This document shows positions 44,903 to 57,166 of a stretch of DNA of 64,000 nt, piece after piece. Each line of letters begins with the position of its first letter. Position 1 is the first letter of the stretch. A model generated the notes under the pieces. That model did no database searches, was not told where the DNA came from, and saw only the letters and a list, made by a program, of their open reading frames with translations. Source of the stretch: Thermoanaerobacter kivui (GTDB lineage: Bacteria; Bacillota; Thermoanaerobacteria; Thermoanaerobacterales; Thermoanaerobacteraceae); NCBI RefSeq assembly GCF_000763575.1, contig NZ_CP009170.1, positions 1,739,501-1,803,500 on the forward strand. Reading direction: 5' to 3'. A program made the position numbers and the translations under genes.

Positions 44903-44944
44903 ATAATAAGAAACTATGACAAAAGTCGTCATAGCTTCTTATTA
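44903..44944 (-). terminator. Terminator of the glucan synthase gene
   Basis: A long stem, AATAAGAA-a-CTATGAC against GTCATAG-c-TTCTTATT, begins at the stop codon on the minus strand. Confidence 0.75.
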
Positions 44945-47900
44945 TCCCATTACCACTAAAACCTGATGACTATTTCCCTTCTTTGTTAAATCAATAGTCT
45001 TATCTGTGACAAGCTCTCCATCTATATATACTTCTTTTACACCTTTGTTAACACCATTAGGATTTCTTATATCTATTAGATATTTCATATCTTTATATTT
45101 ATATTCTATCACATATTTATCCCAATTTTTTGGTATACAAGGGTCTATTATAAGTTTTTCTCCGTATTTTTTCAAACCCAAGAGGTTCTCAATTGCTATC
45201 CTGTACATCCAACCTGCCGCACCTGTATACCATGTCCAACCTCCTCTTCCTACATGGGGTTCTACTGCATACACATCTGCTGCCATGACATAGGGTTCTA
45301 CTTTGTACTTCATGCACTCAATAGGGGTTCTGGTGTGATTTATAGGATTTATCATGTTGTAAAGTTGCCATGCTTTATCTCCTTCTCCAAGCTCCGCAAA
45401 AGCTAGTATTACCCATGCTGCCGCATGAGTATATTGACCGCCATTTTCTCTAACTCCTGGAACATATCCTTTTATATACCCCGGATTCAAATCCCCGTTG
45501 TCAAATGGGGGCGCTAAAAGCTTTATTATCCCTTCTTCTTCGTTGACCAAATAATTTACAACGGCCTTCATTGCCTCTTTAGCTCTAATATCTTTTGCGG
45601 CTTTAGATATCACAGACCAAGACTGTGATATAGAGTCAATTTTGCATTCTAAATTGTCTACAGAGCCTAAAGGTGTCCCATCATCAAAGTAAGCCCTTCT
45701 GTACCAACTGCCATCCCATGCATTTTCTTCTATGGCTTTTATTAATTTATTAGCTATTTCTTGATACTTTTTTGCATGTTCTTCATCCTTTTTAGTTTGA
45801 CATATGGGCGAAAACTTTTGAAGAATAGTGTACAAAAACCATCCTAACCATACACTTTCTCCCTTTCCTTTGTTTCCTACCTTATTCATTCCGTCATTCC
45901 AGTCACCAGACCCCATCAAAGGCAACCCATGTTCTCCAAATTTTAATGAATAGTCTATAGCTTTTAGGCAGTGTTCATACACTGTGCCTTTTGTTTCAGA
46001 TAAGTGAGGTGTGGAATATCTTTCCTCTTCTTCCTCCTTCAATGGCAAATCTTCTAAGTAATTTACTTCTATGTCCAATATAGACCAATCTCCTGTCTTT
46101 TCTATATAGTCAGCTGTTACGTAAGGAAGCCATAACAAGTCATCAGAAAACTTTGTTCTTATTCCTTTATTTACTATAGGGTGCCACCAATGTTGGACGT
46201 CTCCTTCTACAAACTGGTGCTGGCAAGCATTGACTATTTGATTTTTTGTAAATTCTGGCTCTAGATATACCATATTCATAGCATCCTGCAATTGGTCTCT
46301 AAAACCATAAGCTCCTCCCGATTGATAAAAAGCTGACCTTGCCCACAATCTACACGCAATTGTTTGATAAGGCAGCCATCCATTTACAAGTAAATCCATT
46401 GACTTGTCAGGAGTTTTAATCTGTATCCTTTCTAAAAGGTCCTTCCAAAATTCTTTTGCTTTTTCTAATTCAGTCTGAGAATTTTCCACACTTGTATATT
46501 TTGAAACAATCCTTTTTACTTCCTCTAAGCTTGTACCATGTCCTAATAGAAGTATTAGCTGCTTTTCTTCCCCAGGTTTTATATTTACTTGAAATTGTAT
46601 TGAACCACAAGGGTCCAGACCTATACCTCCATTGTTTGATAAACTCTCATAACTTAAAGCCTGTGGGAAACTCAAGCTTCCTGTTACTCCTATAAACTCT
46701 ACTCTGTCTCCCGTAAAAAATGATATTCTCTCTGACGCTGCCAAAAAAGCGATTCTTCCAGGGAAGTCGTCATTGTACATATTTCTTATGAGCAAAGCAT
46801 CGATTTCTTTGTTGTACTCTGTAAAAATATATGGTGCTGTAAACTGGTCTGTAACCCCCAGTACTGGCCTTATATAATAAGTTACAGTAATTTTTCTTTG
46901 CTCTTGTGACAAGTTCTTAATATTGAGAATACTTATTTTTACTGAATCTTCTATTGGAACAAATTCTGTCAGTTGCTGCCTTAAACCACAGCACACACTT
47001 TCAAAAGAAGTATATCCAAATCCATGTTTTACATAGTGAACTTTTGCCTTCCCTTTGGGCAAAGGCGTAACTGTCCACACCTCACCTGTTTCATCATCTC
47101 TTAAATAAACCACTTCACCATGAGGGTCTAACACAGGGTCGTTGTACCAAGGAGTCAATTTATACTCTCTGCTGTTTTCCGCCCAAGTATACCCTGCTCC
47201 TGTCTCTGATATTTGAAAGCCAAAGTAAGGATTTGAAATGACGTTTATCCAGGGAGCAGGAGTGCTTTTGCCTTCCCACCTTATTACATATTCTTTTCCG
47301 TCATTTCTAAAACCTCCAAGGCCATTGTAGTACTCTAAAGGTATATCTTCTACTTTGGGGTCTTCAAAATTCTGGCCTTTTTTACTCCAATTTTTTTCCG
47401 AAAGGACGTTTTTCTGTTCTTTAAAAATTATTTGTTCGTATATTGACTCATTTTTGCCTTCAAACTTCAAAGTAGCGGCGGTATTTAACAAATAAATATC
47501 TTCTTCTTTTAAATTGTTTTCTTGAAGCAAATACATTCCACCGTATTTGCCAAACACATCGTAAGAAAAGCTGGCAGATATAATCTCTTTTATTCTGTCA
47601 TTTAGTGGCTGTATATAACCGCCTTTATCTTTATTTAAAATTACAAGGTCAACATTTACCCCTTTCATTTTCCAATATTCATAGGCTTTCAAAAACCATT
47701 TTACCATGTCTACTTCTTCTATTTTCTCTATTTCAACCAGCACAATAGGTATGTCTCCCGATATTCCATATGACCATAAACCGGATTGACCTTTGGTATT
47801 TTTTATAATTAAACTTTCTCTTAGCTTTCGCTGAGGACTGATATACAAAAGATGTGACAACATCTTTTGTAATAAACCCAATTCCCGTGGTTTCAAATTG

Positions 47901-50900
47901 AGGTAATCCAGTTCTACTCTACTTCTCGTCCATGCCATCTCAAAAGCTCTTTCAACAGCATTTTCATCCTTATACTTTCCAGCGATTTTTACAGCTTCTT
48001 CGCGGCTTTGTGTCAATGCTGATACATACACTACTTTTGCTGTTTCTCCTGGCATTACCTTTATTCTCTTTCTTAAACTTACAATCGGGTCAAGAACAGC
48101 CCCTTGGGTATTGGATAGAGGTTGGTCTACCTCCAAAGCAATTGGTTTTTTTAAACTTCTTCCTCTTCCTATGAACTTTGACCTGTCTGTTTCAAATTGA
48201 GTATCTCCTATAATCTCTGCATTTAAAACTGCTACTTTATGGACTGCCCATATTTTATCTTCGTTTTGTTCTCTCGGTCTTCTGCAAACCAAAATGGCAT
48301 CTTCTTCTTTTAAAAACTCAGTCTTTACAAAGAGCTTATTAAACGCCGGATGTGCTACATCAGTTGGCAAATCTGTCAAGCTTATTTCACCAAAACTTGT
48401 AACTTCCAGTATTCGCGGATGTTTGCTGTGATTCTTTAAAGTCACCCTCCTTATTTCTACATTGTCTTCTGGCGAAACTATCACCTCCATATGTGTGTCT
48501 ACATTGCCTACCCTTTTAAAGTACTCTGCTTTATCTGCAGAAAAAACTACTCTGTAATTTTTGTCTTTTTCATAAAAAGGAGCATAAGTGGCAGACCATA
48601 CAGTATTGGAGTTTATATTTTGAACGAATATAAAGGTGCCGTAGTCTTGTGCTACATCGTTCCTCCATCTCGTCAAGAAAATACCTCTGTCATTTTTGCT
48701 ATAACCTGTGCCTCTTTCTGTAAGCATCACAAAATGCTTACCACTGGACAAAACATGGACTTCTGGCAGTCCGCTTTTGGATTCTCCCAATACCCTTACA
48801 AAATCTCCTTCTTCTTTGCGAATCTTTTCAATCTTTCTGGCTTCTTCTCTTTCTTCACGTGTAATATCCAGATACATAGGCATTTTTTCTTGAAGTAGTA
48901 TTTCCGCAGCTTTTATCATTGGGTCTTTGTGAAATCTTTTTTGCATTATATTGTCATTTATAAAATTGTTCAAGGCTATAAAAGTCATTCCTTGGTGATG
49001 TGCCATAAAACTTTTGACTATCGCATTCTTTCTACCAAAAGGAACTCTTTCGGGTGTGTAGTCTATCGCCTCATAAAAACCGTATTTCCCTTCCATCCCT
49101 TCTTTTTTAAGAAATTTTATGTTTTCTAGCACGCCTTCCGCATCCACGCCAATTGCCAGCAAAGACCCATAAGGTGCTACAACTTTATCGTGAGATAATC
49201 CCCTTTTAAGCCCTAAACTTGGAATTCCAAAGGCTTTGTATTGGTAATTTAAATTTATGTCAAAGGCGTAAAATCCAGACTCCGATATACCCCACGGCAT
49301 ATCAAATTTTTTGCCATAATTTTTTTGCACTTTTACAGCAAAAGCGTATGTCTCATCGAGTAAAGAATTGTCATAATTTCGCATTATCAAAAGAGGCATA
49401 AAGTATTCGAACATCGTCCCTGACCAAGACACCAACCCTTTATACCTGTTTTCAACTGTAAGCATGCGTCCCAATTTAAACCAGTGCCTTTTGTCAACTT
49501 CCCTCTTTGCAATTGCGATAAAACTTGCCTGTCTCGCTTCTGATGCCAATAAGTCATAATAAGATTTTGTAAGCTTTTCCTCCTCTACATTGTATCCTAT
49601 AGAGAAAAGCTGCCTCTTTTCATCGTACAAATACCTAAATTTTGTATCTTCTACAAGTTTCTCAATTGTAGCTTTTATATTTGTAATTTTTTTAGATAAT
49701 TCTTCAATATTCTCTATAGCCATCAGAATTTTATCTTTTTGTCTCTTTAACAAATTCTCTTTTTCCTCTGAATCTTCATCAAAAGTTTTCTCTAACTCTA
49801 AAAGGTAATCATTGTATATCTTTTGTAATTCCTTAGGAGAAGTATATTCTTCAAAAATCTCTTTATATTTTCTAAAAAGTTCATGTTCTTTTCCATCCTC
49901 TTCAAATTCCAACCACACCAAAAAATCTTTCATTTCCTTTTTAAAAGGTTCAATTATCTTATTTAACCTTTTTGCATTCTCTTCTCTATCTTTCAATCCC
50001 TCTATTTTTTCATAAATTTTATCTAATAACATTTTCCAATTGGATGGCATCAATGTATTTTTACTTAAAGTATCTTCAAAATTTTCGTTTAAAATCTCAT
50101 CCAATTCCAGCACTTTGACAGTATCTTTCAAACCTCTCGCTAATTCAATGTCCACAAGAGGTTTACTTAAAAAATCTTCCATCGCTTCTTTCACTGTTAT
50201 TAAATAGCCCACTAAATTTCCGCTGTCCACTGTAGAAACGTAATAGGGTTTTAGAGGCTCTAATGTCCTTGTGTTGTACCAATTGTACAAATGGCCGTTC
50301 CATTTATCCATCTTTTCTATTGTGGCAAGAGTCTTTTCAATCCTTTCAAGCATCTCTGTTGTAGTAATATATCCCAAATCTCTTGCTCCAACTACAGAAA
50401 CAAGGTAAAGCCCTATATTCGTAGGAGAAGTTCTTTCAGCAATTCCATTGGGAGGGTCCTCCTGAAAATTGTCAGGTGGCAAATAATTTTGGCTCTCTAC
50501 CACAAAGTCTTCAAAAAATCTCCACGTTTTTCTCGCTATTAAACGTAGTTTTTCCATGTCCTCCTGCAAAACAGCTTTTACTTTTTTATCAATTGGCTTA
50601 CTTATATAAAAAGCAATGTAGCAAGAAACTGCCCAGAGGAAAAACAGCAAAATAGCCCATATTAAACTTTGGGGCTTAAAATACATAGCTAATACGACTA
50701 CTGCCAATCCTTCCAACAAAGATACCCACATTCTTTTAAAAAAGCTTGCAAAATCGTTTTTTAAGCGTTTTTCCATGTCAGCAGCTGTAACCCATTCCAA
50801 CAGATTTTTTCGAGTTATGTATAACCTTACAATTGTTCTAACTATTGCATCTGCCATTATATAAGCTTGATAAGGCAAGAATATGAAATTTAGTAACGAT

Positions 50901-53605
50901 TGGTAAAAAGCAGCTTTGACACCTTGTATCACAGCTTTGTGCCTTTTTTCCCAATAGCGTCTAAATTGGCCTTTAAAAATTCTATCAACCAAAACAGGTA
51001 TGAGAGGGAAAAACACAGTCAAAGCTGCAAGTAACAACCACAAAAATCCACTTCCTGGCAAAATGCTAAATCCTAGAAATATCATCAACATCAAAGCAAC
51101 TGTCACAAGACTTCTCCTTAAATTGTCAAAAATCTTCCATTTCGTTACCACAGAAAGCGGATTTTTGATGACTTCTCCTCTCCTATTTTTTATCTTATAA
51201 TTCAAGTAAGGAAGTAATTGCCAGTCGCCTCTCACCCATCTGTGTAATCTCATAATATATGAATTGTATTTTGCAGGATAGCCATCAATCAATTCTATAT
51301 CAGTAACAAGCCCCGTTCTTACAAAAGACCCTTCTAAAAGGTCATGGCTTAAAATAGAATTATCAGGTATGGTATCTTTTAATAGCTCCCTAAATACGTC
51401 TACGTCATATATTCCTTTTCCTGTGTATATACCTTCTCCAAACAAATCTTGGTACACATCTGATACTGCTGTAGTATAAGGGTCAATTCCACCCTGCCCA
51501 CCAAAAATACGGGAAAAGAGGGTGGCATTTGCGCTTTCTATGTCAATACTTATTCTCGGTTGCAAAAGGCCATATCCTTCTACTACTATCCCACAATCTT
51601 TATCAATTACAGCTTTGTTCAAGGGATGAAGCATCGTTCCGACAAGTTTTTTAGCAGCATCAATAGGCAAATTAGTATCTGCATCCAAAGTTATCACATA
51701 TTTTATTTTTAACTTAGCCACATCTCCACTAACCACGTAAAAACTTGTATCATTGCTTCCTCTTAAAAGCTCGTTAAATTCAACAAGAGCTCCTCTTTTC
51801 CGCTCCCATCCCATCCAACTTTTTTGCATTTCGTTGTATTGTCTTTTCCTATGGAAATAATAGAATATTTCCTCTCCATCTTTGGTGTATTTTTTATTTA
51901 ACTTTTTAACTTCAGTCAGCGCACAATTTACAATTTTTTCATCTTCTGAAAGTTCTTCAAAAGGCGCGTCTTTAAAATCTCCTAATAAAGCAAAATACAA
52001 ATTTTTTTCTTTATTCGCATGATAATACACTTCAAGACTTTCAATTAATTCTTTAGTCCTCTTTTCATCCGTCAAAAGCGAAGGAATTACCACCATTGTC
52101 GCTGCATCCTCAGGTATGCCATCTTTTAATTCAATTTTCGGCAGTACCACAGGTTTAAAAACGTGCATCAAAATCCAATTTACAAGCTGTACTGCTATTT
52201 CACTGAAAGGGATTAAAAGGATTGCTGCCGAAACAATCAGAAGCCACAAATTTCTATTTAAACTCCACAAGTATTTTATCGCGAAAATTTCACCTAACAA
52301 TATACTTACTAAAATTAAAGCTATGTAGAAAACATCCGGATACCTTTTTAGAACTTTAGCTATATTTCTTACACTTTTAGTCTTGTTGTTTATTTTATTT
52401 TCAAGAATACTTCTTCCCTTACCTATGAGGTAAAATCCGACATGGTTTATGTACCCTAACTTACCCTCTTCCTCCGTTACTTCTTTGGCACATTCTATAG
52501 CCTTTTTGGCCACATATGTCTCTGAAGTATTGTAAGTTTTTGCTATTTTCTCTATTTCATGCCTGTAATAATCCCTCGACTCAAAATCCATCATAGGATA
52601 TGTACCATCAGGGTCTTGCCTTAAAATTTGCTCGACTGGACTCAAACTTTCAAATATCTGTGCCCAATCAAGAGAAGAAACAGTTTTTAAACTAACAATA
52701 GCATTGCCTATGGAAATCTGCCTCTTTGCTTGCATTTGATGGGACCTTTCCGTCACATCTGCAATATTGGTATCATATTCCATTAAAATTTTATCTATAT
52801 ACTGTATTACATTAGTTGAACTGTCCCCTTCTTTTCTAAGTCTGTTTACCAAATGCTCAATAAACTGAAGAGGAAATCTATCTGCAACATTGATGTTTTC
52901 CCTAATCAGTTTTTTTATTTCTTCATATTTCATTTCTTTTTCTAAAAGCAAATTCAATATACTATCTGCTTTTTCCCTTTGTCTGCGAGCATCCACAATT
53001 TTTTCGCAAATTCTTTTTATCTTTTCAATCAAAGCAATACGTATCATAAGGCTTAAAGCCCACAGCTCCGAGCTGGAAAGCAAAGCCTTTGTCTGATATG
53101 CTTTTATAAAGTTGATTATAGTTTTTTCATCAATTTTGCCGTCAGAATGGAGCACTAATTCAAAGGCTATGGCATATATCCTTGGATATCCTCTAAGTAA
53201 ACCATTTTTAAGCCCTGGAAGTCCGGAATAATAACTCTTTGACAAGCTTTTTCTTATTTCTTTAACTTGCTCTTCAATTATATAAAAATTGTCCAATAAC
53301 CACTCTTCTTCTTGGAAAATATAGACATTTTCTTTCAAATCACTATTCAAACTTCTATAAACTGATTTAATGTAATTGTAATTTCTGTTCATTCTGGGAA
53401 TAAGCAAATATGACAATTTGGTTCTTTTCATGATGTTGTGATTTTGTGCTATTTCCGCTGCATGTTTTTCCATTTCTTCAGAATTTAAAATGACATCATT
53501 AAAATCTCTCACCATGTCTTCTCTATTTAATCTATAGTTTTTTGAAATATGTACTAAAAATGCTAATAGTAAAAGCAAAGTTAAAACTAACACCCCATAG
53601 AACAA
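44942..53605 (-). CDS. Giant cyclic beta-1,2-glucan synthase (NdvB/Cgs-like)
   Basis: 2,887 residues, the normal size for this family. N-terminal TM helix, then an elongated helical region. TM pairs near 430-480 flank a GT84 glycosyltransferase domain with TLDADTNLPID (about 638) and the HRWVRGDWQ motif (about 792). More TM helices lie near 840-900 and 985-1040. A glycoamylase-like cyclisation region follows (about 1060-1610; GH189, which I recall being defined from Thermoanaerobacter italicus). A GH94 phosphorylase-like domain ends the protein (RDQLQDAMN; GSGDWNDGMN near 2568). It should polymerise UDP-glucose into beta-1,2-glucan, trim it and close the ring. The start is TTG at 53605 with GGAG 11 bases upstream. 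Single-gene transcript. Confidence 0.93.
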   Translation of the reverse strand: MFYGVLVLTLLLLLAFLVHISKNYRLNREDMVRDFNDVILNSEEMEKHAAEIAQNHNIMKRTKLSYLLIPRMNRNYNYIKSVYRSLNSDLKENVYIFQEEEWLLDNFYIIEEQVKEIRKSLSKSYYSGLPGLKNGLLRGYPRIYAIAFELVLHSDGKIDEKTIINFIKAYQTKALLSSSELWALSLMIRIALIEKIKRICEKIVDARRQREKADSILNLLLEKEMKYEEIKKLIRENINVADRFPLQFIEHLVNRLRKEGDSSTNVIQYIDKILMEYDTNIADVTERSHQMQAKRQISIGNAIVSLKTVSSLDWAQIFESLSPVEQILRQDPDGTYPMMDFESRDYYRHEIEKIAKTYNTSETYVAKKAIECAKEVTEEEGKLGYINHVGFYLIGKGRSILENKINNKTKSVRNIAKVLKRYPDVFYIALILVSILLGEIFAIKYLWSLNRNLWLLIVSAAILLIPFSEIAVQLVNWILMHVFKPVVLPKIELKDGIPEDAATMVVIPSLLTDEKRTKELIESLEVYYHANKEKNLYFALLGDFKDAPFEELSEDEKIVNCALTEVKKLNKKYTKDGEEIFYYFHRKRQYNEMQKSWMGWERKRGALVEFNELLRGSNDTSFYVVSGDVAKLKIKYVITLDADTNLPIDAAKKLVGTMLHPLNKAVIDKDCGIVVEGYGLLQPRISIDIESANATLFSRIFGGQGGIDPYTTAVSDVYQDLFGEGIYTGKGIYDVDVFRELLKDTIPDNSILSHDLLEGSFVRTGLVTDIELIDGYPAKYNSYIMRLHRWVRGDWQLLPYLNYKIKNRRGEVIKNPLSVVTKWKIFDNLRRSLVTVALMLMIFLGFSILPGSGFLWLLLAALTVFFPLIPVLVDRIFKGQFRRYWEKRHKAVIQGVKAAFYQSLLNFIFLPYQAYIMADAIVRTIVRLYITRKNLLEWVTAADMEKRLKNDFASFFKRMWVSLLEGLAVVVLAMYFKPQSLIWAILLFFLWAVSCYIAFYISKPIDKKVKAVLQEDMEKLRLIARKTWRFFEDFVVESQNYLPPDNFQEDPPNGIAERTSPTNIGLYLVSVVGARDLGYITTTEMLERIEKTLATIEKMDKWNGHLYNWYNTRTLEPLKPYYVSTVDSGNLVGYLITVKEAMEDFLSKPLVDIELARGLKDTVKVLELDEILNENFEDTLSKNTLMPSNWKMLLDKIYEKIEGLKDREENAKRLNKIIEPFKKEMKDFLVWLEFEEDGKEHELFRKYKEIFEEYTSPKELQKIYNDYLLELEKTFDEDSEEKENLLKRQKDKILMAIENIEELSKKITNIKATIEKLVEDTKFRYLYDEKRQLFSIGYNVEEEKLTKSYYDLLASEARQASFIAIAKREVDKRHWFKLGRMLTVENRYKGLVSWSGTMFEYFMPLLIMRNYDNSLLDETYAFAVKVQKNYGKKFDMPWGISESGFYAFDINLNYQYKAFGIPSLGLKRGLSHDKVVAPYGSLLAIGVDAEGVLENIKFLKKEGMEGKYGFYEAIDYTPERVPFGRKNAIVKSFMAHHQGMTFIALNNFINDNIMQKRFHKDPMIKAAEILLQEKMPMYLDITREEREEARKIEKIRKEEGDFVRVLGESKSGLPEVHVLSSGKHFVMLTERGTGYSKNDRGIFLTRWRNDVAQDYGTFIFVQNINSNTVWSATYAPFYEKDKNYRVVFSADKAEYFKRVGNVDTHMEVIVSPEDNVEIRRVTLKNHSKHPRILEVTSFGEISLTDLPTDVAHPAFNKLFVKTEFLKEEDAILVCRRPREQNEDKIWAVHKVAVLNAEIIGDTQFETDRSKFIGRGRSLKKPIALEVDQPLSNTQGAVLDPIVSLRKRIKVMPGETAKVVYVSALTQSREEAVKIAGKYKDENAVERAFEMAWTRSRVELDYLNLKPRELGLLQKMLSHLLYISPQRKLRESLIIKNTKGQSGLWSYGISGDIPIVLVEIEKIEEVDMVKWFLKAYEYWKMKGVNVDLVILNKDKGGYIQPLNDRIKEIISASFSYDVFGKYGGMYLLQENNLKEEDIYLLNTAATLKFEGKNESIYEQIIFKEQKNVLSEKNWSKKGQNFEDPKVEDIPLEYYNGLGGFRNDGKEYVIRWEGKSTPAPWINVISNPYFGFQISETGAGYTWAENSREYKLTPWYNDPVLDPHGEVVYLRDDETGEVWTVTPLPKGKAKVHYVKHGFGYTSFESVCCGLRQQLTEFVPIEDSVKISILNIKNLSQEQRKITVTYYIRPVLGVTDQFTAPYIFTEYNKEIDALLIRNMYNDDFPGRIAFLAASERISFFTGDRVEFIGVTGSLSFPQALSYESLSNNGGIGLDPCGSIQFQVNIKPGEEKQLILLLGHGTSLEEVKRIVSKYTSVENSQTELEKAKEFWKDLLERIQIKTPDKSMDLLVNGWLPYQTIACRLWARSAFYQSGGAYGFRDQLQDAMNMVYLEPEFTKNQIVNACQHQFVEGDVQHWWHPIVNKGIRTKFSDDLLWLPYVTADYIEKTGDWSILDIEVNYLEDLPLKEEEEERYSTPHLSETKGTVYEHCLKAIDYSLKFGEHGLPLMGSGDWNDGMNKVGNKGKGESVWLGWFLYTILQKFSPICQTKKDEEHAKKYQEIANKLIKAIEENAWDGSWYRRAYFDDGTPLGSVDNLECKIDSISQSWSVISKAAKDIRAKEAMKAVVNYLVNEEEGIIKLLAPPFDNGDLNPGYIKGYVPGVRENGGQYTHAAAWVILAFAELGEGDKAWQLYNMINPINHTRTPIECMKYKVEPYVMAADVYAVEPHVGRGGWTWYTGAAGWMYRIAIENLLGLKKYGEKLIIDPCIPKNWDKYVIEYKYKDMKYLIDIRNPNGVNKGVKEVYIDGELVTDKTIDLTKKGNSHQVLVVMG

Positions 53606-54776: not shown

Positions 54777-56159
54777 TTATTCCTCCCAAATCTTGATATT
54801 TCTCAACCATTTAGGGTAATAATTTTTAACTATCCCTTTTGCTACCCTGCCCCATCCAGCAGGAAATCCCTCTGCGGTGAAAAAAATCCATCCATCTTCC
54901 ATGTCCAATTCAAAAGTTTCGCCATTGAAATACTTTTCTTTATATTCTTTTGTCAATTCTAAATGCCTTTGTGCCTCATGCGTTTTTATCCCCATTGCTA
55001 GCCAGTGAGAAGGTTCAAACCTATTTTTTTTAAGCTCTCCTAACTGCCAACCATATCTATACACTTTTATATTACCTAAATATGGTAAATCCTCTGATAC
55101 ATGATACACAAAGTTATTGTAAATCTCAAGATTAAGAACTCCTAAATCTAAATTAAGATATTTATTGGCAAAGTCGTAAAACAGCTCTAATCCTTTTTTG
55201 TTGTTACTATTCTTTCTTTTTGTGAATTTATAATCTTCGTTATCACTATCTTTTTTTCTTAATTTTGCGATAAAATGTCCCTCTCCTTTAAGTTTGTGAG
55301 GCCATAACCTTATGCATTTGCTTAAATCTTCTGGACCTTCTACCCATTCAGGATGTCCTTTGTCGAAGTATTTGCACACTTCACTTTCCTCAACTTCAAA
55401 TTCCAGATGTTCTTCTAAAAATTTTTTTATAACTCCTTCGTTTTCTTCAGGTGAAAAAGTGCAAGTAGAATAGACTAAAATGCCGCCAGGCTTCAATAAC
55501 GGCGCCACATTTCTAAGTATATTTTTTTGTATTATAGAGCAGCTCATGACATTATTTAAAGACCATATCTTCCTTGCCGTAGGGTCTTTCCTAAACATTC
55601 CCTCTCCTGAGCAAGGAGCATCAACCAAAATCTTATCAAAATACCCCTTAAATGCGGAAGCCAATTTTTCAGGACTTTCGTTTGTTATCACAATATTTCT
55701 TATTCCCATTCTCTCTATATTTTCCACCAGCGCTTTTATCCTTTTGTTGTCTATTTCATTCGCCACAATAATTCCCTTATCGCCAATTTTTGTAGCTATG
55801 TGAGTAGTCTTCCCGCCCGGCGCTGCACTTACATCGAGAATTTTTTCTCCTGGCTTAGGGTCTAATACCTCCACAACTGCCATCGCTGTAGGCTCTTGAA
55901 TGTAGTAAAGTCCTAAAATATGGTACAAATGGTTGCCCGCCTTTTCTTCTTTATCATAATAAAACCCAGTTGGGCACCAAGGAATTGGGGTTATCTCAAA
56001 AGGAACAATTTTTTTAAACTCTTCTACACCGATTTTTAATGTATTCACTCTTAAGCCTTTTTGAGACTTTTTGTCGTATTCCTTTAAAAAATCTTCATAC
56101 TCTTCTTTAAGTAATTGCTCCATTCTCTTCAAAAACTCTTCTTTTACTGTAATTTTCAT
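54777..56159 (-). CDS. RsmF/YebU-like 16S rRNA m5C methyltransferase
   Basis: 460 residues. The NOL1/NOP2/Sun-type methyltransferase core has DVSAAPGGKTTH (SAM binding), LVDAPCSGEGMFRKDP (catalytic motif IV cysteine) and YSTCTFSPEENE (motif VI cysteine). The C-terminal about 150 residues match the RsmF N-terminal-like and PUA-like region (FFTAEGFPAGWGRVAKG). It should methylate a cytosine of 16S rRNA near the decoding centre. It lies 1 base upstream of corA. Confidence 0.9.
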   Translation of the reverse strand: MKITVKEEFLKRMEQLLKEEYEDFLKEYDKKSQKGLRVNTLKIGVEEFKKIVPFEITPIPWCPTGFYYDKEEKAGNHLYHILGLYYIQEPTAMAVVEVLDPKPGEKILDVSAAPGGKTTHIATKIGDKGIIVANEIDNKRIKALVENIERMGIRNIVITNESPEKLASAFKGYFDKILVDAPCSGEGMFRKDPTARKIWSLNNVMSCSIIQKNILRNVAPLLKPGGILVYSTCTFSPEENEGVIKKFLEEHLEFEVEESEVCKYFDKGHPEWVEGPEDLSKCIRLWPHKLKGEGHFIAKLRKKDSDNEDYKFTKRKNSNNKKGLELFYDFANKYLNLDLGVLNLEIYNNFVYHVSEDLPYLGNIKVYRYGWQLGELKKNRFEPSHWLAMGIKTHEAQRHLELTKEYKEKYFNGETFELDMEDGWIFFTAEGFPAGWGRVAKGIVKNYYPKWLRNIKIWEE

Positions 56160-56196
56160 CTTATTACTACCCCTATCTTATTGATTGAATAATATA

Positions 56197-56403
56197 CTGA
56201 CATTTTGCACAGTTCGCTCCTGGGATATCGCAGGCTAAACTAGCGCTCGATCTCGAACTCCAGCGGGGTTTCCGGGCACAATCGGCCTCCTTGCCTCAGG
56301 TGCCCGCCTCCGCCCTCCATGGCTCCGGCCCCGCTTCCGTTCTTCAGTCTCGCTAAGTTTAGCTTCTGCTCTATCAAGTCGCTTTACTTTTGCAAAATGT
56401 CAG
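56197..56403. repeat. 207 bp GC-rich palindromic element with 13-bp terminal inverted repeats
   Basis: The ends CTGACATTTTGCA and TGCAAAATGTCAG are perfect inverted repeats. Nested inside are GCTAAACT-AGCG/CGCTAAGTTTAGC, GAAC..AGCGGGG/CCCCGCT..GTTC and CGGGCAC/GTGCCCG, so the whole can fold as one long hairpin. Its interior is far richer in G and C than the surrounding DNA. No ORF is evident. The flanks share ATATA, a possible target duplication, though the area is AT-rich. It may be a MITE-like element or a structured RNA. Confidence 0.75.
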
Positions 56404-56422
56404 ATATATATAAAATTGACAA

Positions 56423-57102
56423 CTAATCTTTTAGATTACTAATAACTTTCCCATTATTTTCAGCTGATAATAATATTTTATCCAAAATAACCTGGTCTTT
56501 GTAGGCTTCCTCAAAAGTGGGTGTCTCACTAAATACAATTTTATCCTCTACAATATTTGTAAAAAAGTTTATGAGACTTGCCATGTGTAAATCTACCATC
56601 CATCCAAGAGAATATTTTTCTTGGGGATATATTAACTGTACATATTTAGTAAATTTACTTTCTTTATCATAATCACCAATTATTTTCATATTCTCTTGCT
56701 TTTTATATAATACAGCATATCGAGGATGTTTTGTAGATATTTTTATTGAGCCCTTTGTACCGTATATTTCAAATCGAGTCTCCTCCTCAAGGTCAGGAGA
56801 TATCCGGGAAGCTTCAATGCTTCCCCATCTATCACTTTCATCGCCTGTTCATAATGAAGGTAATTAGGGGTACATATGTCGACAGCATCAAGGTCACCAT
56901 CTTCCAACATTTCTTCAATACTTTTTACACCTTTTTCAAAAAAATGTGGTATATCTTCTATGTTATTCTTGTACACAGGTCCAAGTTTCACTTCAAAAGG
57001 AAGGTTTTTAAATAATAAAGGCATTGAAAAACAAGCTATAGAATGGATTGTCCCAATAAACCCAAGCCCTACAAAACCAAGTTTTATTTCTTTTTTTGCC
57101 AT
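56423..57102 (-). pseudogene. Gfo/Idh/MocA-family oxidoreductase, internally deleted and frameshifted
   Basis: The N-terminus (MAKKEIKLGFVGLGFIGTIH, Rossmann dinucleotide site, then DLDAVDICTPNYLHYEQAMK) breaks off at KVID. In another frame the sequence resumes at the C-terminal domain: GSIEASRISPDLEEETRFEI, YGTKGSIKIS, and finally SETPTFEEAYKDQVIL. Roughly 150 codons that should contain the catalytic middle are missing. A ribosome binding site and an extended -10 (TATAAT at 57148-57153) remain upstream. Confidence 0.85.
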
Positions 57103-57166
57103 TAAAATCACCTCTTTTTAAAATTCCGATATAAAAGGTATATTTTAATTATAACATTAATGGCAC

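Follow-up and report, generated by a model that had tools for sequence, protein, structure and literature searches.

A 207-bp palindromic block in the genome of Thermoanaerobacter kivui encodes a structured RNA on its minus strand, and this RNA is dispersed; both statements are well supported. We consider it probable that the block belongs to a transposon-dispersed group of RNAs related to TwoAYGGAY that would bind or titrate CsrA, the binding and the expression being predictions. The block lies at 56197-56403 of a 64,000-nt stretch of the chromosome (contig NZ_CP009170.1), called the window below; all positions without a genome, record or locus label refer to it.

The block and its genes

An earlier note, made from the letters of the window alone, described the block as a GC-rich palindromic island in AT-rich DNA, with perfect 13-bp terminal inverted repeats and no ORF, next to a gene disabled by an internal deletion. 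All of these features hold. The GC content is ∼56% in the block and 27–33% in its immediate flanks, its 13-nt terminal arms (56197-56209 and 56391-56403) are 100% complementary, and there is no ORF of at least 60 aa inside it. Folded as RNA, the block reaches −88.7 kcal/mol, compared with −56 ± 4.7 kcal/mol for shuffled sequences (z −6.95; 0 out of 200 shuffles equal it). The fold, the arms, a covariance model match and comparison with other elements mark the whole element as a long hairpin RNA unit, with the minus strand as RNA strand; its terminal stem has the 5′ arm at 56391-56403 and the 3′ arm at 56197-56209. Its head consists of hairpin 1 (GCC-AUGGAG-GGC, 56312-56323, loop at 56315-56320) and hairpin 2 (GGC-AAGGAG-GCC, 56284-56295, loop at 56287-56292), both on the minus strand and each with GGA in its loop; the two GGA loops are ∼28 nt apart.

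The RNA sits between two minus-strand genes, ∼38 bp ahead of a 460-aa ORF (54777-56159, minus strand, from the ORF list), which we take to be a SAM-dependent rRNA methyltransferase (RsmF-like). Upstream of the RNA is a pseudogene of a Gfo/Idh-type oxidoreductase (56423-57111, minus strand, from the ORF list and relatives): ∼455 bp are missing as compared with nine relatives, whose longer versions have this stretch between the two halves of the gene. A scan for promoters and terminators near the 56197-56403 copy returned chance level only, and the promoter result counts against the explanation that we favour. Elsewhere in the window there is a single ORF of 2887 aa (44942-53605, minus strand) that presumably encodes a cyclic beta-glucan synthase/glycosyltransferase 36 type protein.

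A conserved RNA structure on the minus strand

We aligned 20 cores, all from outside Thermoanaerobacter (one of them an RF01731 member), and built on them a covariance model, R1, with 122 positions. R1 has only one match in the 64-kb window, at 56360-56237 on the minus strand (118.1 bits, E 3e-32, positions 1–122 out of 122), and this full-length match delimits the conserved core (56237-56360). Both sides have changed in 20 out of the 37 consensus pairs of the 20-core alignment, and 98% of its pairing cells are compatible with pairing, against 84.3 ± 0.8% in shuffles and 24–48% when the partner is slid. Among 26 full-length elements across genera, 29 out of 43 pairs covary. Such strong compensatory change among copies, together with the R1 match, bears out the suggestion of a structured RNA in the earlier note.

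The loops are conserved as well: the GGA of hairpin 2 is retained in 82 out of 83 distinct cores and that of hairpin 1 in 77, its loss in the other six being a point against our favoured explanation. 41 copies from seven distant genomes all have GGA in hairpin 2, and 35 of them have it in hairpin 1; in distant copies the loop GGA persists even where the stems are AT-rich. The loop consensus over the 83 distinct cores and the distant copies is ANGGAN, closed by a C-G pair, with the N positions free. In 82 out of the 83 cores the minus strand folds with better energy than the plus strand. We also tried the asymmetry between G-U and A-C as a strand test, which gave only 46 to 28 on the pairs common to the structures of both strands; since this test is weak and the copies are related, our strand call is based on fold energy and loops.

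Outside the core, an outer zone is common to the elements (AGCGAGCGACUUGA..GAGCGG, with CCUGCGAGG..GGAGCGAGCG on the opposite arm), and each element terminates in a stem of about 13 bp that varies freely in sequence between genomes. As the terminal stem, the outer zone and the covarying pairs recur across elements, the 207 bp including the 13-bp repeats are the canonical RNA unit. Several copies (L003, L010, L011, L012, L021 and L023) have an extra hairpin of ∼72 bp (CCCGGCACTCAA..TTGAGTGCCGGG; e.g. G000:C1:1676252-1676323) at one fixed spot of the outer arm, and its loop occurs in at least three sequence versions; the same insert is found in L003 and L021 in opposite orientation.

Relationship to TwoAYGGAY

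TwoAYGGAY is family RF01731 (clan CL00106) of Rfam and was described by Weinberg et al. (2010; PMC2864571). No Rfam model matches the block itself: the RF01731 model (cutoff 43 bits) gives no match to it even at E 5–10, and nearly all other copies likewise go unreported by this model. Two relatives, however, do match it: an element of Pelotomaculum (L173) scores 65 bits, above the cutoff, and the single-copy element of Thermoanaerobacterium scores 42.7 bits, just below the cutoff, with the whole model covered. A match to a described RNA family, which the earlier note had named as grounds for giving up its proposal, thus exists for relatives of the block copy but not for that copy.

Like TwoAYGGAY, the block has a long basal stem that bears a head of two hairpins with GGA in their loops. 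Its loops AUGGAG and AAGGAG are at the right places, with GGA kept but not all of the Y positions, and the consensus of its group is ANGGAN, not AYGGAY. Three further traits, namely a conserved outer stem, a high copy number and carriage by transposons, set the RNA apart from TwoAYGGAY as portrayed in the text consulted. The RNA of the block is homologous to TwoAYGGAY.

Copies and distribution

A DNA search of the whole T. kivui genome (G000; 2,397,824 bp) gave 25 matches when fragments and the block itself are counted (76–89% identity for the others), and R1 has 26 matches in the genome; these copy counts derive from searches of the genome. All nine other Thermoanaerobacter genomes have copies too. 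R1 was positive in 85 out of 399 sampled genomes of the phylum (59 genera), many of them with at least eight copies, and a pattern scan of the GTDB collection found hosts in Thermoanaerobacter, Thermoanaerobacterium, Desulfovirgula, Desulfofundulus and Pelotomaculum. Thermoanaerobacterium genomes with the RNA have one copy each, in one syntenic place (presumably flanked by genes for an S41 peptidase and a glycerate kinase). The phage and viral collections gave no match to the element, and the plasmid search gave a single one, in an unannotated 'Klebsiella' record (NZ_CP061968.1, 19591-19711; L094, L202). We set the latter aside: it is a Clostridia-type copy with sequence mirrored on both sides of the core, and is likely a misassembly (fold-back) or a contaminant.

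Could the element be a purely selfish palindromic DNA repeat, a MITE core whose hairpin acts as DNA (cruciform or single-stranded) and has no function as RNA? The paired changes would then be made by template switching between the arms, a process that could in any case have produced part of the compensatory change. The long palindrome, the high copy number and the use of at least two transposon carrier types agree with such an origin, and so does the inversion of the core relative to its flanks at orthologous sites, as palindromes do, seen in Thermoanaerobacter (L089 versus L090) and between Thermoanaerobacterium species (L073 versus L075). But template switching would erase internal mismatches and loops, whereas the loops have kept ANGGAN and conservation between genera extends to unpaired stretches; moreover, the GGA loops and the stabler fold are confined to one strand, and one syntenic copy per genome has been kept in Thermoanaerobacterium. 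We regard this explanation as unlikely.

Copies are mostly found at the 3′ ends of genes. A cis-acting RNA of 3′- or 5′-UTRs that stabilises, insulates or terminates the transcripts of its neighbours, with GGA loops serving other contacts than CsrA (e.g. with the ribosome or an RNase), would fit this location, the shared strand of RNA and upstream gene in 15 out of 22 cases, the position of the block between two minus-strand genes shortly before the methyltransferase ORF, and the type listed for TwoAYGGAY in Rfam (cis-reg). However, the 3′-end location follows from the preference of IS1182 for terminator hairpins (see below), the orientation bias of 15 to 7 is weak, the flanking genes differ between copies, and duplicated hairpins of terminator-like form enclose most copies, which makes a cis-acting role quite unlikely in our judgement.

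Two other contexts were observed: an R1 element that falls inside a T-box leader match in L246 (G305:C2:36150-37000; match at 139–683, 68.5 bits), as if inserted, and a selenocysteine tRNA (75 bits; L003, 1748-1838) ∼85 bp from an ISLre2-type copy.

Transposon carriers

About 20 out of the 26 copies in the T. kivui genome are flanked by CAGnnTGTnnACAAA-type ends. These are the ends of a 1566-bp element that is present in five copies in the genome and encodes an IS1182-family transposase (NF033551, 496 bits). Most IS1182-type insertions, and three out of the five IS copies (L046-L050), are found between direct copies of a hairpin of 19–30 bp, and the hairpins duplicated in this way typically resemble transcription terminators. 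The resident element targets stem-loops like IS1272 of the same family, but IS1272 replaces its target hairpin, whereas the resident element duplicates it; such a duplication corresponds to outcome 6b in the stem-loop model put forward for IS1272 (PMC5678879). The IS copy at 1.8416 Mb of the genome is in the same place as an IS1182-type gene reported at the start of 'duplication 1' of T. kivui, and both IS1182 and ISLre2 elements were reported active in laboratory T. kivui (PMC12056078). A second palindromic element, distinct from the first but with the same IS1182-type ends, is found in tandem in L005 (∼1220-1420; G000:C1:2380834-2381030), in the arrangement terminator-element-terminator-element-terminator.

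GTGTGTCAAAA..TAGGTGA ends enclose other copies, and a pattern search identified these ends as those of an ISLre2 element (NF033529, 324 bits); an IS256-like assignment of this second carrier was discarded, the transposase being ISLre2. 9-bp duplications of the ISLre2 type were found for both the MITEs (e.g. CTAATTAAA at L066) and the IS itself (e.g. GTCTCTTCA in L267). A third type of ends (TATCCCCAGTTT; TATCCCC ends), with duplications of 9–11 bp, surrounds the same RNA in genome G219.

With 26 R1 matches in the genome, the element shows the dispersed, non-coding copies of a MITE. ERIC, Correia and bcr1 are bacterial palindromic MITEs, which are short and non-coding and have many intergenic copies. 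The copies described here resemble them in all of these respects, but differ in that one RNA core is common to different transposon ends and has undergone compensatory evolution throughout the phylum. On our favoured reading, the RNA has spread chiefly on board small non-autonomous transposons, to which IS1182-family and ISLre2-family ends give mobility if, as we suppose, the transposases act in trans on the RNA-carrying MITEs. It is also conceivable, if very unlikely, that the RNA serves the transposons, by recruiting CsrA or another host factor, or by guiding transposition. Carriage of the same core by unrelated MITEs (IS1182-type, ISLre2-type and those with TATCCCC ends) would be explained, but the autonomous IS1182 and ISLre2 elements that we read are not among the R1 matches, and single copies without such ends were seen in Thermoanaerobacterium.

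Recent arrival of the block copy

The block copy arrived recently, as in nine out of nine relatives of the genus the site is empty (GATTGAATAATATA(C/T)TGACAACTAATC or some version of it) or the stretch is missing. The order at the occupied site is GAATAATATA, the 207 bp, ATATATATAAAA and TTGACAAC: the gain over the empty site amounts to the 207 bp plus the 12 bp of ATATATATAAAA. The left junction, TTGATTGAATAATATA (56179-56196), is identical in the empty sites; the 12 extra bases at the right junction (56404-56415) are absent from them. The relatives could have reached the same empty sequence through a deletion between short repeats, but that deletion would need to be common to every one of them.

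The earlier note took the block for a non-autonomous mobile element, possibly a structured RNA at the same time, on account of its terminal repeats and a possible ATATA duplication. Mobility is borne out by the 26 copies and the empty sites and, with the covariation, so is the dual nature; the proposed signs of transposition fare less well. The 13-bp repeats form the RNA's terminal stem, a part of freely varying sequence between genomes, and are not ends of the transposase type; in other copies the transposon ends are located outside this stem. ATATA does occur on both sides, but the setting is AT-rich and seven further bases are unexplained, so that there is no clean target duplication. We found no IS1182 or ISLre2 ends around the block copy: the autonomous partner with the same ends that the note envisaged exists for most other copies, but not for this one. 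This lack of transposon ends and of a clean duplication is a weak point of the favoured explanation. ISLre2-family ends and 9-bp duplications match the MITEs around some copies, whereas the block copy retains only ∼18 bp of inner similarity on one side: 17 out of 18 bases of TGAATAATAT[AG]CTGACA are common to the empty site/left junction and two ISLre2-type MITE copies (L066 and L090). This left junction suggests that homology-assisted recombination from an ISLre2-type copy may have brought in the block.

Probable link to CsrA

The T. kivui genome encodes CsrA (PF02599, E 3e-21). CsrA was detected in 80 out of 85 genomes with the RNA and in 205 out of the 314 that lack the RNA (Fisher p 1e-8, odds ratio 8.5). 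Two points weaken this association: it is uncorrected for phylogeny, and CsrA went undetected in five genomes with the RNA. SELEX yielded RUACARGGAUGU as the CsrA site, its GGA lying in the loop of a hairpin (PMC4347634), and the C-G-closed ANGGAN loop fits it, with the caveat that purine-rich stems often contain GGA too. CsrA binding had been proposed for TwoAYGGAY by Gardner and Eldai (PMC4333381), whose passage on the motif offers no test. We found nothing relevant in the literature on CsrA with MITEs or on small RNAs in Thermoanaerobacter.

Two features of CsrA-sequestering small RNAs are present: the block has at least two GGA-in-loop sites, and its host has CsrA. It is similar to CsrB/CsrC and RsmX/Y/Z in its paired sites with GGA in hairpin loops and in the presence of CsrA in the genome, but it has two loops on one rigid rod and many dispersed copies, and its expression and CsrA binding are predictions. 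The chances of a CsrA role are about even to somewhat better. The minus-strand RNA would be a rod-like hairpin of ∼207 nt whose two-hairpin head presents GGA in C-G-closed ANGGAN loops, a pair that one CsrA dimer may bind. The intergenic 3′ copies could be transcribed from their own promoter or by read-through, and jointly they may act as a CsrA sink or tag transcripts for CsrA.

Implications

TwoAYGGAY has so far been an orphan RNA motif with an untested proposal of CsrA binding. What is new here is the scale, the carriage by several transposon families and the link to CsrA, not a wholly new kind of RNA: a small Rfam family becomes a widespread multi-copy RNA with strong covariation, a distribution tied to CsrA and movement with transposons. 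Tentatively, and with rather less than even confidence, we propose a phylum-wide mobile regulatory RNA, in which CsrA-binding genes of a TwoAYGGAY superfamily multiply on MITEs of unrelated transposon families and transposition sets the dose of a CsrA sponge in the genome. T. kivui is a genetically tractable acetogen, in which a direct test is possible. If the RNA does bind CsrA, transposons would alter the free pool of a global regulator through copy number.
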